Source: Amycolatopsis sulphurea
GTDB lineage: Bacteria > Actinomycetota > Actinomycetes > Mycobacteriales > Pseudonocardiaceae
Assembly: GCF_002564045.1 (NCBI RefSeq)
Contig: NZ_PDJK01000002.1
Span: 5,084,001-5,148,000, forward strand
Length of the DNA stretch: 64,000 nucleotides
Reading direction: 5' to 3'
The notes beneath the pieces were generated by a model that made no database searches, had not been told where the DNA came from, and saw only the letters and a program-made list of their open reading frames with translations. Shown piece after piece: positions 27,704-62,003 of this stretch. Within the stretch, counting starts at the first letter, position 1, and each line of letters starts with the position of its first letter. The position numbers were made by a program, and so were the translations under genes.

Positions 27704-27777
27704 TGCCCCCGGAGAGATTCGAACTCTCACTGGACGGGTTTTGAATCCGTTGCCTCTGCCAGTTGGGCTACGGGGGC
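27704..27777 (-). tRNA. tRNA-Leu (anticodon CAA), short variable loop
   Basis: Read leftward, the 74 bases fold as a cloverleaf: acceptor GCCCCCG with CGGGGGC, D-arm with GCC/GGC stem and GG in the loop, anticodon stem ACGG/CCGT, loop TTCAAAA giving anticodon CAA, variable loop CCAGT, T-arm GAGAG-TTCGAAT-CTCTC, and discriminator A. CAA specifies leucine (UUG codons). Unusually for tRNA-Leu it has a 5-base variable loop instead of a long arm, and the pair at position 31/39 is A-C. CCA is not encoded. Confidence 0.85.
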
Positions 27778-56825: not shown

Positions 56826-57764
56826 TCAGCTGGTGATGTCCTTGCGGGCGAACCGGCGCCCGGCCAGCAGCAGGAACACCGTCGCGTAGACCAGGGCCGA
56901 AAGCACCCCGCGGACGAGGTTGTTCCAGTCGATGTCGGTGGAGATCAGGTCGATCCAGGCGAACGAGTAGTGCGTGGGCAGGTAGTTCCGCAGGTCGCCC
57001 AGCGCGGTGATCTGGTCGAGGATCTGCGACAGGATCGCCACCAGCACCGTGCCGCCGACCGCGCCCAGCGGCGCCTCGGTGGACACGCTCAGCAGCAGCC
57101 CCAGCCCGGCCACCCAGGCCAGCTGGATCACGATGTACCCGATGGACAGCAGCAGCGCGAGCAGACTGTCGCCGAAGGCGATCGCGTCGCCGGTCGGGCT
57201 GATCGCGTCGCCCGAACCGTAGAAGATCACGCCGACCAGCAACGACATCAGCGGCAGCAGCACCAGCGCGCCGATCGAGAGCAGCCCGGACACCACGGCC
57301 TTCTGCCGCAGCAGCCGGTGCCGCGGCACCGGGATCGCCAGCAGGTATTTCAGGCTCGACCACGAGGATTCGCTGGCGATCGTGTCCCCGAAGAACAGCG
57401 CCACGATCATCGGCAGCAGAAAGGTCCCGGACACGAACAGCGCGAGTACCACGAAGTTCGGCGCACTCGCGGTGGCCAGGTCCACGAACCCGCCGGAGCG
57501 CCGGTTCGGGCTGGCCTGCCCGATCTCGAAGGCCAGCACCAGGATGAACGGCAGCACCGCGACGAACGCGAGTACCAGCTGAGTCCGGCGTCGGCGCAGC
57601 TGCCGCCTCAGCTCCACGCCCAGCCGTAGCGTGCGCGCGGCCCGGTACCCAGCCACCGCGCCGTCGGGGCCGATCTCCGCCGGCTCCGCGGTGGCCAGGT
57701 CGCTCAGCTCCTGCAACGCCGCGGGGTCGGTGTGCACCCCGCTGGCACCGTCGGTGGTGTTCAT
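56826..57764 (-). CDS. ABC-2-type exporter permease
   Basis: The 312-residue protein has an N-terminal cytoplasmic stretch (about 45 residues with LQELSDLATAEPAEIGPDGA) and six hydrophobic segments: TQLVLAFVAVLPFILVLAFE, NFVVLALFVSGTFLLPMIVA, VVSGLLSIGALVLLPLMSLL, LLALLLSIGYIVIQLAWVAG, and two more near the end. SSWSSLKYLLAIPVPRHRLL matches ABC-2 permeases. The ATPase is the C-terminal half of the fusion protein encoded just upstream; the two genes are separated by about 100 bp on the same strand. Confidence 0.85.
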   Translation of the reverse strand: MNTTDGASGVHTDPAALQELSDLATAEPAEIGPDGAVAGYRAARTLRLGVELRRQLRRRRTQLVLAFVAVLPFILVLAFEIGQASPNRRSGGFVDLATASAPNFVVLALFVSGTFLLPMIVALFFGDTIASESSWSSLKYLLAIPVPRHRLLRQKAVVSGLLSIGALVLLPLMSLLVGVIFYGSGDAISPTGDAIAFGDSLLALLLSIGYIVIQLAWVAGLGLLLSVSTEAPLGAVGGTVLVAILSQILDQITALGDLRNYLPTHYSFAWIDLISTDIDWNNLVRGVLSALVYATVFLLLAGRRFARKDITS

Positions 57765-57861: not shown

Positions 57862-60711
57862 TCAATCGTCTCCCACCAGCTGCAGGAACGCGTCTTCCAG
57901 CCGTCGCCGCGGCCCCGCCTGTGCCACGGCGACGCCCGCGCGGACCAGCGTGGCCACCGCCTCAGCCCGCGGGAGCCCGCCGAGGTTCGCGTGTACCAGG
58001 TCGTCCTCGGTCTCGAGGTCCGAGACGCCGCCGATTCCCTTCAGCGCGGCCGCGGCGGCCGCCGGGTCGTCCACCCGGAAGGTCGCCTCCCCGCTCGCCG
58101 CGGCCAGCTCGCCGACCTCCCCGGCGGCAACGAGCGTGCCGCGGTGCATGACCACCACGTGCGTGCAGGTCTGCTCGACCTCGGCCAGCAGGTGGCTGGA
58201 CACCACGACGGTGCGCCCGGTCGCGGCGTAGCGCTGCAGCACCTCGCGCATCTGGTGGATCTGCGGCGGGTCGAGCCCGTTGGTCGGTTCGTCGAGCACC
58301 ATCAGCTCCGGCAGGCCGAGCATCGCCTGCGCGATCGCCAGCCGCTGCCGCATGCCCTGGCTGTAGGTCTTGACCCGCCGGTGCACCGCGTCGCCCAGCC
58401 CGGCGATCTCCAGCGCCTCGGTGAAGTGCGCCTTCTCCGCGGGCCGCCCGGTGGCCGCCCAGTACAGCTCCAGATTCGCCTGGCCGGACAGATGCGGCAG
58501 GAACCCGGAACCCTCCACGAACGACCCGATCCGCGACAGCACCGGCGCCCCCGGCGTGATCCGGTGGCCGAACACCCGGATCTCACCCGCGGTGGGCGTG
58601 ATCAGGCCCATCAGCATGCGCAGCGTCGTCGTCTTGCCCGCGCCGTTCGGCCCGAGCAGGCCGAGCACCTGGCCGGGCTCCACCCGGAAGGACAGGTCCC
58701 GCACCGCGACGAACCCGCCGCCGTAGTGCTTGCGCAGCCCGGAGATCACCAGCGGCGTCGAGGCCAGCTCCGGGTCGACGTCGTGCGCCCGGCGGCGCCG
58801 GAGGGCGACCACGGTCAGCACGGCCGCACCGGCCAGCAGGGTCCCGCCGATGCCGATCAGCTGCCCGGTGGGCAAGGCCGCCCCGGCCGAAGTGCCCGGC
58901 ACGACCGGGACCTGCAGCGCGCTCCCGGACGCGAGGCCGATGCGGAACACCCCCGGCTGTGGCGGGACCGAATAGGACTGGTCGGTGGTGCCGACCACCA
59001 GCCGCAGCGAGTGCCCGGTCTCGACCGGCCGCACGATGCCCGGCAGGGTCACCGTGACCTCCACGGGGGTGCCGTCCGCGGGCAGCCCGGTCACCCGGAA
59101 CGGGGCCACCGCGTTCGCGGGCAGCGCTCGGTTGCCGTCTTGGCCGACGTCGTAGAGCTTCGCGAACAGCACCGCTTCCGGCAGCGGGTGCGCCGGGTCG
59201 GTGGCGACCTGCAGCCGCACCGTGCTCGCCCCGGCCACGACGACCTGCCGGTCGAACGGCTGGGTGCCGAACTGCGCGCCCTGCCCCGGCGGATCCGTCC
59301 CGAACAGCTGCGACAGCCGTGACGACGAACTGGAGGCGAGCCCGTTGAGCCCGGGGATTCCGCTCACCGCGGCCGGATTCGCCCCGGCAGGCCGCACGGC
59401 CTGCTGCGCGGGACCAGTGAGCGTCAGCTGCTGCCGTTCGGTGTTCCCACCGGCGAGCCCTGGGTAGGCGTCCGCGGAGACCGTCCGCACGGACGGGGTC
59501 CCATTGGCGCGCAACGTGCCCTGCACGTCGTAGCTGAAGCCGTGGCCGGGATCGCCGTCGCCGGTGAGCGCGGACCACAGGAAGTCGCCGATCTTCCCGC
59601 GCAGCTGCGGGCCAGGCGTGCCGCCGTCGTGCCCACCGGCGTACCAGATCGTGCGGACCGAGCCGCCCGCCGCGGTGATCTGCCGCGCCGTCGCGTCGGA
59701 CTGGTCGAGGCCGAACAGCGTGTCGTTCTCGCCCTGCACGAGCAGTGTCGGCACGGTGATCCGGTTCGTGACCGACGCGGGGGAGATCCGGCGCAGCAGG
59801 GCTGTGGTCTGGGCGCTCGCCTTTCCCGTGGTGGAAAGCTCGGTGTAGGCCTGGCAGACCGCAGCGGTGAACCGGCCGCACGGGTCCGCGGCCGGCTGCT
59901 GCGCGCGGCCCGATGGACCGGCCGCCTGGGGCGAGGTGCCGCTGCCGCCTGCCGTGCCCCCGTTGTCGCTGCTTTTCTGTCCGGCCTCGGGGGCTACGGC
60001 CGACGGCGCGCCGCCCGTGGCTCCCGAGCCAGCCGAGAAGAGGATGCCTGCCCAGCTCTTCTTGAAGACACCGTCCTGGGCGAACGCACCGGCCGCCGGA
60101 GTCTTCGCCGTTGCCGTCCGCGCGGCCGTGTTCGGCACGAGACCCTGCGCGAGGTCGTTGTAGGTGATCACCGGGGCGACCGCGCGCACCCGGTGGTCGG
60201 TGCCGGCCAGCAGCAGCGACAACGCCCCGCCGTAGGAAGCGCCCGTGACCGCAAGCTCGGGCGCGCCACCGGGACCGGTGGCGACGTCGTGCCCGGACAG
60301 CAGCCGGTCGATCAGCCGGCTCGCGTCGGCCACCTCGCCGTCCGGATCGTTCAGCCCGATCTGGCCGGTGCTGCGGCCGAACCCGCGTGCCGACCAGGTG
60401 AGCACGAGGAACCCGCGCTGAGCCAGCTCTTCGGCCTGTGCGCCCACGTCCGTCTTGTCCGCGCCGAACCCGTGCGTGAGCAGCACGGCGGGCGCGGGGG
60501 TGTGCTCGGGGTAGTAGGTCGTGGTGTCGATGCGGACCTGCTCGGCGGAGCCGGGCGCGGCCGGCACCGCGACGAAGGCGTCCTGGGTCCGGATCGCAGG
60601 CCGCCCGGAGCCACTGGCGGTCCAGACCACTGCGGCTGCGGCGATCACCACCACCGCGGCCAGCGCGAGGAGCCGGGTGGTGCGCGTGCGGGGGAGTGGG
60701 AATCGGGGCAC
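57862..60711 (-). CDS. Fusion of an S15-like alpha/beta hydrolase with an ABC exporter ATPase
   Basis: The 949-residue protein begins with a membrane anchor (LLALAAVVVIAAAAVVWTAS). The alpha/beta hydrolase (about residues 45-400) has LLTHGFGADKTDVGAQAEEL and the nucleophile elbow VTGASYGGALS (Ser159), then VPTLLVQGENDTLFGLDQSD and WYAGGHDGG (Asp and His). A beta-sandwich XPP/S15 C-terminal domain follows (about 430-610), then one more membrane segment (LIGIGGTLLAGAAVLTVVAL). The ABC ATPase (about 650-949) has Walker [10 protein letters not shown], signature YSQGMRQRLAIAQAML, and Walker B VLDEPTNGLDPPQ. The hydrolase is outside and the ATPase inside the membrane. Confidence 0.88.
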   Translation of the reverse strand: MPRFPLPRTRTTRLLALAAVVVIAAAAVVWTASGSGRPAIRTQDAFVAVPAAPGSAEQVRIDTTTYYPEHTPAPAVLLTHGFGADKTDVGAQAEELAQRGFLVLTWSARGFGRSTGQIGLNDPDGEVADASRLIDRLLSGHDVATGPGGAPELAVTGASYGGALSLLLAGTDHRVRAVAPVITYNDLAQGLVPNTAARTATAKTPAAGAFAQDGVFKKSWAGILFSAGSGATGGAPSAVAPEAGQKSSDNGGTAGGSGTSPQAAGPSGRAQQPAADPCGRFTAAVCQAYTELSTTGKASAQTTALLRRISPASVTNRITVPTLLVQGENDTLFGLDQSDATARQITAAGGSVRTIWYAGGHDGGTPGPQLRGKIGDFLWSALTGDGDPGHGFSYDVQGTLRANGTPSVRTVSADAYPGLAGGNTERQQLTLTGPAQQAVRPAGANPAAVSGIPGLNGLASSSSSRLSQLFGTDPPGQGAQFGTQPFDRQVVVAGASTVRLQVATDPAHPLPEAVLFAKLYDVGQDGNRALPANAVAPFRVTGLPADGTPVEVTVTLPGIVRPVETGHSLRLVVGTTDQSYSVPPQPGVFRIGLASGSALQVPVVPGTSAGAALPTGQLIGIGGTLLAGAAVLTVVALRRRRAHDVDPELASTPLVISGLRKHYGGGFVAVRDLSFRVEPGQVLGLLGPNGAGKTTTLRMLMGLITPTAGEIRVFGHRITPGAPVLSRIGSFVEGSGFLPHLSGQANLELYWAATGRPAEKAHFTEALEIAGLGDAVHRRVKTYSQGMRQRLAIAQAMLGLPELMVLDEPTNGLDPPQIHQMREVLQRYAATGRTVVVSSHLLAEVEQTCTHVVVMHRGTLVAAGEVGELAAASGEATFRVDDPAAAAAALKGIGGVSDLETEDDLVHANLGGLPRAEAVATLVRAGVAVAQAGPRRRLEDAFLQLVGDD

Positions 60712-60879
60712 GTGCCGACGTTAGGCGAGCTTTCCTGAGAATGCCGCCCCGGCTTTACGCGGATCAGACACCGTGCTCACTCGTTCGCGTGGTCAGTGAG
60801 GTGGCTAACACGGCCGTCCCGGTGATGCGGGCTACCCCCGCTGGCATTCGCCGCCGGTAACCGGCAAACTGGACGCGCT

Positions 60880-61001
60880 GTGAGGGGAGTATTCCTTCGC
60901 GGCGGTGTCGTCAGCACGGCGGCCGGTCCCTTCCGCTTGCGGTGAGGTTCGGCCCCCGGCACCGTCGGCCGCGCGTCCGCGTGGCGGGAGAGACCTCCGG
61001 T
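60880..61001 (+). ncRNA. yybP-ykoY-type (Mn2+) riboswitch upstream of the TerC gene
   Basis: The conserved 5' element GAGGGGAGTATTCC (about 60882) and the 3' element GGGAGAGACCTCCGG (about 60986-61000) have the spacing and motifs of the yybP-ykoY family (GGGGAGUA and GAGACCUC pairing), with an internal GC-rich arm between. It ends 36 bp before the TerC start. The family senses Mn2+ and controls Mn exporters such as TerC/Alx proteins; translation or transcription control is possible. Confidence 0.72.
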
Positions 61002-61037
61002 TAGTTGCTGCTGCGCACTATCCGGAGGTTGCGTTTC

Positions 61038-62003
61038 ATGATCGTTCCCGTGTGGCTGTGGTTCGCCACGGTCGGTGGCCTGCTCGCTCTGATCGCCCTC
61101 GACCTGGTGATCGTCGATCGCAAGCCGCACGCGGTGACCACCGGCGAGGCCGCGCGGTGGGTGATCTTCTACATTGCCTGCGCGGTGCTGTTCGGCGCCG
61201 GCGTCTGGTTCTTCGCCGGGCACGACCCGGGGGTCGAGTTCTTCACCGGGTACATCACCGAGTACTCGCTGAGCGTGGACAACTTGTTCATCTTCATGAT
61301 CATCATGGCCTCGTTCAAGGTGCCGGCCATCCACCAGCACCGGGTGCTGCTGGTCGGCATCCTGCTCGCCCTGGCCATGCGCAGCGTGTTCATCGCCGTG
61401 GGCGCCGCGCTGATCAACCAGTTCGTCTGGGTGTTCTTCCTCTTCGGCGGGGTGCTGATCTGGACCGCGATCAGCATGTTGCGCAGCAAGGGCGAGGAGG
61501 AGCAGTACCAGGAGAACGCGCTCACCCGCTGGGTGCGGAAGCTGTTCCCGGTCACCGACGACTACCACGGCCACAAGTACCTGGTGCACCACCAGGGCCG
61601 GCGGATGATCACCCCGATGCTGCTGGTGATCGTCGCGATCGGCTCGGCCGACCTGCTCTTCGCGGTGGACTCCATCCCGGCCATCTTCGGCATCACCCAG
61701 GACGCCTTCCTGGTGTTCACCGCCAACGCGTTCGCGCTGATGGGCCTGCGGCAGCTGTACTTCCTGCTCGGCGGGCTGGTGAACAAGCTGGTCTACCTCA
61801 GCTACGGGCTCGCGGTGATCCTCGCCTTCATCGGCGCCAAGCTGGTGCTGCACGCCCTGCACGAGTATCACGCCGCACCGGACTGGCTGGACATCGACAA
61901 CTGGGTGTCCCTCGGCGTGATCGTGGTCGTGCTGACCGTGACCACGGTGACGAGCCTGGCCAAGGCGCGGCGCGACGAGCGGGCCGGAGTCGAGGCGAAT
62001 TAG
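61038..62003 (+). CDS. TerC family membrane protein
   Basis: ATG 61038 (CGGAGG nine bases upstream) starts 321 residues. About eight hydrophobic segments form the TerC pattern: LWFATVGGLLALIALDLVIV, FFTGYITEYSLSVDNLFIFM, LLVGILLALAMRSVFIAVGA, IVAIGSADLLFAVDSIPAIF with the conserved acidic DSIP and SVDN motifs that line the ion path. TerC/Alx proteins export Mn2+ or load it onto extracytoplasmic enzymes. The riboswitch in the leader would raise synthesis when Mn2+ is high, which fits this role. Confidence 0.9.
   Translation: MIVPVWLWFATVGGLLALIALDLVIVDRKPHAVTTGEAARWVIFYIACAVLFGAGVWFFAGHDPGVEFFTGYITEYSLSVDNLFIFMIIMASFKVPAIHQHRVLLVGILLALAMRSVFIAVGAALINQFVWVFFLFGGVLIWTAISMLRSKGEEEQYQENALTRWVRKLFPVTDDYHGHKYLVHHQGRRMITPMLLVIVAIGSADLLFAVDSIPAIFGITQDAFLVFTANAFALMGLRQLYFLLGGLVNKLVYLSYGLAVILAFIGAKLVLHALHEYHAAPDWLDIDNWVSLGVIVVVLTVTTVTSLAKARRDERAGVEAN

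Follow-up and report, generated by a model that had tools for sequence, protein, structure and literature searches.

Within the window, by which we mean the whole 64-kb stretch of DNA that was analyzed, a gene for a TerC family protein begins with an ATG at position 61038. Its leader carries two conserved boxes, GAGGGGAGTATTCC at 60882-60895 on the 5' side and GGGAGAGACCTCCGG at 60986-61000 on the 3' side. An earlier reading, made from the sequence only, had these boxes flanking a single GC-rich arm with the TerC start 36 bases further on. The boxes do lie in the proposed layout, but there are two paired arms between them, P3 and P4, and while the start codon is indeed downstream, 37 bases separate it from the end of the 3' box. 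The core of the ribosome site, CGGAGG, sits at 61023-61028, close to the 3' end of the aptamer at 61000, just as that reading had it. The features of the locus are as follows.

60879..61000, + strand: aptamer, full match to our covariance model R1 (86.0 bits; the window's sequence is part of the R1 training set)
60882..60885, + strand: 5' strand of the switch helix P1.1, GAGG, pairing with 60994-60997
60886..60891, + strand: 5' side of loop L1, GGAGUA, the end of the GGGGAGUA box
60892..60895, + strand: 5' strand of P1.2, UUCC, pairing with 60986-60989
60900..60910, + strand: 5' strand of P3, pairing with 60957-60967
60911..60917, + strand: loop L3, UCAGCAC, in which A60913 is the putative counterpart of the Mn2+-contacting adenosine
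60918..60956, + strand: outer part of the P3 arm, a variable hairpin closed by 60918-60919 and 60955-60956
60957..60967, + strand: 3' strand of P3, pairing with 60900-60910
60969..60984, + strand: P4 hairpin, pairing 60969-60974 with 60979-60984
60986..60989, + strand: 3' strand of P1.2, GGGA, pairing with 60892-60895
60990..60993, + strand: 3' side of loop L1, GAGA
60994..60997, + strand: 3' strand of P1.1, CCUC, which also lies within the anti-ribosome-site strand
60993..61000, + strand: putative anti-ribosome-site strand ACCUCCGG, exact complement of 61022-61029
61022..61029, + strand: ribosome binding site CCGGAGGU
61038..62003 including the stop codon, + strand: TerC family protein of 321 aa, Alx type (PF03741; TIGR03718, R_switched_Alx)

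A search from 60700 to the TerC start codon turned up no hairpin resembling a terminator, and a simple sigma-70-like consensus gave no promoter upstream of the aptamer. On the minus strand, a 949-aa ORF at 57862-60711 fuses an X-Pro dipeptidyl-peptidase/S15-type hydrolase to an ABC transporter ATPase domain; the next ORF (56826-57764, also minus) looks by eye like its membrane partner and had no NCBIfam match.

The TerC protein of the window matched PF03741 and also TIGR03718 'R_switched_Alx', where its 393.4 bits clear the cut-off of 246.4. It shares 37% identity with E. coli Alx (116 of 310 columns), and a search by sequence found no related solved structure. Alx has been implicated in Mn efflux, and the TerC proteins of B. 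subtilis are described as having minor efflux activity and a part in the metalation of exported enzymes (PMC10550928). On that account TerC/Alx proteins may be Mn2+ exporters, metal suppliers for exported enzymes, or both, and efflux and metalation alike would fit with Mn2+ control.

We searched 150 genomes of the window's family with a two-box pattern (GGGGAGTATTCC N80-110 GAGACCTCCGG), using the same pattern read backwards as a control. The pattern occurred in 44 of the genomes, the window's own included, and the control in 0 of 150. Thirty family loci from this search (L003-L032, the window's copy being L010) were carried forward; 26 were aligned as A2 and 21 as A3, and covariation was counted on A3. 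Near copies or loci with a one-base deletion were omitted before A2 (L008, L019, L022, L024) or after it (L016, L025, L032), and L003 and L004 were dropped from A3 when MAFFT misplaced their P3 3' strand. The letters of GGGGAGTATTCC and GAGACCTCCGG, one side of the putative ribosome-site lock included, are conserved in alignments A1 to A3 because the search pattern fixes them.

The 21 relatives in the rows of A3 were used to build the covariance model R1, whose E-values are rough because its calibration was short. R1 matched 148 of the 150 family genomes and all 46 sampled genera, and at E<=0.01 it matched 73 of 396 genomes across the phylum, a lower bound under the stricter filters applied there. 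The nine two-box loci left out of the model scored 70.2 to 104.9 bits with it. Several family genomes (e.g. G006, G021, G044, G047, G077, G080) have two or three matches. Named records contained at least 118 core-pattern loci (80 + 38), and R1 matched 117 of the 118 among those listed, missing L096. Among the matches listed, the core pattern was found in records of Actinomycetota, Aeromonas, Shewanella, Paenibacillus, Kroppenstedtia, Chloroflexi and others. The Paenibacillus and Kroppenstedtia copies have GGGGAGUAGC, as does the RF00080 consensus, with TerC behind them, and so join the actinomycete form to the classical family.

The layout is that of a three-way junction in which P1.1, L1, P1.2 and P3 bearing L3 are followed by P4, with no P2. 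P1.1 has just 4 pairs in the window, and the position beside it (60881/60998), a U/C mismatch there, is G-C in 20 of the 21 A3 rows. In A3, a MAFFT alignment made independently of the model, 98.1% of 581 cells were paired and 10 of 28 pairs showed two-sided changes, all of them within P3 and P4. None of 500 shuffles was as high on any of five measures, and slid versions of the structure paired in 37 to 60%. P1.1 and P1.2 were nearly invariant in A3, where much of their sequence is set by the search pattern, and they covaried only in two larger alignments that were fitted to the model. One of these, A4, holds 30 phylum matches fitted to R1, including the window's copy as L039; 96.1% of its 820 cells were paired and 21 of 28 pairs changed on both sides. 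The other, A5, was drawn by sequence pattern from the 80 listed named loci (79 matches) and model-fitted, with 95.5% of 2121 cells paired and 21 two-sided pairs, a count that 1 of 500 shuffles reached. Covariation supports the P3 and P4 helices within the family and all helices in the wider model-fitted set. When the leader was folded freely, neither P1.1 nor P3 was present (probability 0.00). The aptamer fold therefore rests on comparison, and we rejected equilibrium folding as a basis for it.

The earlier reading had called the leader a yybP-ykoY aptamer and had named the lack of a significant covariance-model score as a result that would count against this. RF00080 from Rfam 15 gave no match at E<=10 in 60700-61100, which formally goes against the assignment; the three families listed in that interval were unrelated and far below their thresholds. 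Across the whole genome no RF00080 match exceeded the cut-off, two scraps elsewhere scoring 10.2 and 9.3 bits, and the sole Rfam 15 match over threshold in the window was a tRNA gene at 27704-27777 on the minus strand. However, the E. coli alx leader (L034:4375-4500), whose reporter is said to respond to Mn2+ (PMC9603457), was likewise missed by RF00080 at E<=10, so that the model's blank at the window says little. RF00080 scored E. coli mntP at 41.6 bits against a cut-off of 45 and found nothing at E<=5 in seven relatives scanned together. Of the 150 family genomes, 8 gave a match at E<=0.01, with none exceeding the cut-off; among 14 control genomes, matches at that limit came from E. coli, B. 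subtilis and Caulobacter, and two of these did exceed it. With the positive control alx missed as well and mntP below the gathering score, we rejected the silence of RF00080 as a refutation. The gathering cut-off, below which the window falls, is a database threshold and not a biological feature.

R1 did recognize the alx leader, with a full-length match of 28.5 bits (E 7e-6 in 15 kb), and when 50 kb of further E. coli DNA were added (65 kb) alx was still the sole match at E<=10 (E 3e-5). The yybP-ykoY identity was thereby supported, in an alx-like form: the element resembles alx in sequence and structure, its model matches the whole of the alx leader, and it precedes an Alx-type TerC. These comparisons support placing the window RNA in the yybP-ykoY (Mn2+) riboswitch family as a sound, if ordinary, member. 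A yybP-ykoY leader has already been predicted in print for an actinobacterial terC, and NCBI's own name for the protein family includes 'R_switched'. The point of note is that the current RF00080 model leaves a gap for the alx-like form. No study of this actinomycete family was found in the literature searched, a scope that took in few subscription papers.

Like the window, the alx leader has GGGGAGUA and GAGACC boxes, the P1.1-P1.2-P3-P4 layout and a TerC/Alx gene downstream, and L3 has seven bases in both (UCAUUAC in alx, UCAGCAC in the window). The two differ in how the ribosome site would be reached: in the window the 3' strand of P1.1 can pair directly with the site 21 bases on, whereas the alx leader runs 80 bases from the R1 match to the start codon. 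The GC fraction of the R1 match is 0.74 in the window and 0.48 in alx. The RF00080 consensus shares with the window the GGGGAGUAG box and an L3 starting GUCA, but its L3 is longer, GUCAACAUACUUG, and a further small helix separates L1 from P3. RF00080 does not score the short-L3 form, and R1 gave no match to the E. coli mntP leader. Also among the closest known systems is C. glutamicum cg2157, an actinobacterial terC whose yybP-ykoY leader was predicted by Rfam at 49.13 bits (2013 Rfam) and observed in RNA-seq (PMC3890552); the likeness to the window lies in the gene and the predicted leader. The solved aptamers of L. lactis and X. oryzae are four-way junctions, unlike that of the window (PMC6754395). 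The P2 helix belongs to four-way-junction members, and a three-way-junction member has been reported (PMC9495176).

The internal loop formed by GGGGAGUA and GAGA lies between P1.1 and P1.2 (60884-60891 and 60990-60993). GGGGAGUA was present in 29 of 30 rows of A4 and GAGAC in all 30; GGGGAGUA was also in 21 of 21 rows of A3, but there the search pattern imposed it. The UCA of L3 (60911-60913) was found in every row of A3 (21/21) and A4 (30/30) and is not fixed by the two-box pattern; A5 was left out of this count because its search pattern imposed UCA. In the L. lactis and X. oryzae structures, a single invariable adenosine of L3, A41 and A48 respectively, is described as contacting Mn2+ through its N7, with L1 extruding an A against P3.1 (PMC6754395). 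The L. lactis L3 is given as UCA41AU43UC, so that UCA occurs there as in the window, and X. oryzae has ACA with its A contacting Mn2+ (PMC6754395). By correspondence of L3 with these solved relatives, A60913 would be the Mn2+ contact in the window.

We examined the genes behind the element with a TerC profile that drew on 12 of the 30 family loci and on Alx, and with a P-type profile built from five of the phylum loci that it then labels; the Pfam check among the profile-labelled family and phylum loci covered the window's TerC and L043. Riboswitches of the yybP-ykoY type stand ahead of genes for metal transport, for instance terC/alx, mntP or a P-type ATPase, and at all 30 family loci the next gene was TerC. 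Of the 29 phylum loci (the window's copy omitted), 22 are followed by TerC and 6 by a P-type cation ATPase, which at one of them (L061) lies ~500 bases beyond the element; the remaining locus ran into a contig end. Among the at least 118 named loci listed, the profiles assigned TerC to 70 of 80 and 35 of 38 (105) and P-type to 2 and 1 (3). For the 8 leftovers from the 80 listed, Pfam gave three more TerC proteins and, in a Chloroflexi record (L076), a Na/Ca-exchanger family protein (PF01699) behind the element. In the others the core pattern precedes a GreA/GreB-like protein (L135), a 79-aa ORF without a Pfam family (L124), or a Saccharothrix ORF also without one (L127), and L082 has only 17 bases past the match.

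Three Saccharothrix records (L127, L171, L182; R1 65.4, 56.9 and 64.1 bits) have the element ~30 bases before a small ORF that is not TerC, and a fourth (L172) does have TerC. L171 and L182 are the two of the 38 loci to which the profiles assigned neither TerC nor P-type. The small ORFs are alike, with 127-131 aa and a lipoprotein-like N-terminus. This ORF is a possible new Mn2+-controlled gene. The putative lipoprotein gene is not known to concern metals.

Comparison across genomes demonstrates the conserved fold, the homology to the alx leader and the linkage to TerC. We consider it highly probable that 60879-61000 is an alx-like, three-way-junction Mn2+ riboswitch aptamer in the 5' leader of a terC/alx gene, acting as a translational ON switch, with ligand and response taken from its relatives. 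Since ACCUCCGG is the exact complement of CCGGAGGU, a translational ON switch is the likely mechanism, and it is also the natural reading given that Mn2+ is described as stabilizing a weak P1.1 in X. oryzae (PMC6754395). The X. oryzae switch itself is transcriptional, in contrast to the translational one proposed here (PMC6754395). P1.1 and the lock would be mutually exclusive because both use one strand. Judging from the solved relatives, Mn2+ would bind between L1 and L3, touching N7 of A60913, and would dock the two legs and stabilize the weak P1.1 (60882-60885/60994-60997). Without Mn2+, as the complementarity suggests, the region of the P1.1 3' strand (60993-61000) would pair with 61022-61029 and translation would be blocked; with Mn2+ the strand would be kept in P1.1, the ribosome site freed and TerC made, so that high cytoplasmic Mn2+ would raise TerC.

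In folding calculations the ribosome site was paired with the anti-site at a probability above 0.5 in 29 of the 30 family leaders, the exception being L013. Forcing P1.1 opened the site by more than 0.1 in 28 of 30, but only to a mean of 0.33. Nearest-neighbour energies were -100.3 kcal/mol for the free fold, -79.5 with ON forced and -89.6 for OFF with the aptamer arms kept, which gives the OFF folds an advantage of ~10 to 21 kcal/mol over ON. As OFF is far more stable and the free fold lacks the aptamer, the choice between ON and OFF would fall during transcription. Compensatory change between the anti-site and the ribosome site was weak. At 16 of 58 loci the anti-site was not the majority one. 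Scored with their own anti-sites these 16 loci reached 15.4, where permutation gave 14.5 on average and was as high in 74 of 2000 cases; the majority anti-site scored 15.5 on the same regions. Single cases were compensated at L044, L055 and L056 and uncompensated at L041, L046, L049, L050, L051, L052, L058 and L064. We therefore rejected this covariation, weak over permutation, as proof of the platform, which we infer from the complementarity.

That the control is by transcription termination, and not translational, seems to us quite unlikely. Classical-box relatives (L110, L104, L061) do repeat the 3' strand of P1.1 in a hairpin followed by a T run, but the window has no terminator-like site before its start codon and its anti-site matches the ribosome site exactly; control may still involve Rho-dependent termination coupled to blocked translation. 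A stable lock could also work with no riboswitch at all, the leader being a protein-binding site or a thermometer that hides the ribosome site, since the highly stable anti-site pairing would alone reduce translation and no Rfam family reaches threshold at the locus. We regard this as very improbable, because the element matches over its full length a leader with a reported Mn2+ response (PMC9603457) and because the unpaired letters of L1 and L3 are conserved along with the helices. Chance resemblance of GC-rich DNA, to which the silence of RF00080 might point, is already refuted by the occurrence of R1 matches throughout the family and by A3 covariation that was not model-fitted and lay beyond every shuffle, and its probability is negligible.

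A different question is whether the same fold answers to Mn2+ alone or to a joint physiological signal, alkaline pH with Mn2+ or Ca2+ with Mn2+. The element is alx-like, and for alx reporters an increase is described at pH 8.5 by itself, the largest one being seen when Mn2+ is present as well (PMC9603457); a three-way-junction relative from Streptococcus reportedly has a higher affinity for Ca2+ than for Mn2+ (PMC9495176); and some relatives precede the P-type cation ATPases and the Na/Ca exchanger noted above. Against this, the next gene in the window is the Mn-linked TerC and the Mn-contacting adenosine is kept. We think a mixed signal rather unlikely, and prefer the reading as a Mn2+ switch. 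It is likewise a doubtful, speculative suggestion that the short-L3 three-way-junction form is a distinct subtype, near-universal in the family and invisible to Rfam, perhaps with a joint signal (Mn2+/alkaline pH or Mn2+/Ca2+), a minimal 8-pair TerC lock and uptake by the putative lipoprotein gene in Saccharothrix.

Since Rfam 15 alone misses the alx-like form, an RF00080 blank should not be taken to mean that a genome has no Mn2+ riboswitch. For the actinomycete family of the window, in which the element is present in nearly all of the genomes examined, the analysis offers a direct regulatory prediction for Mn2+ handling.
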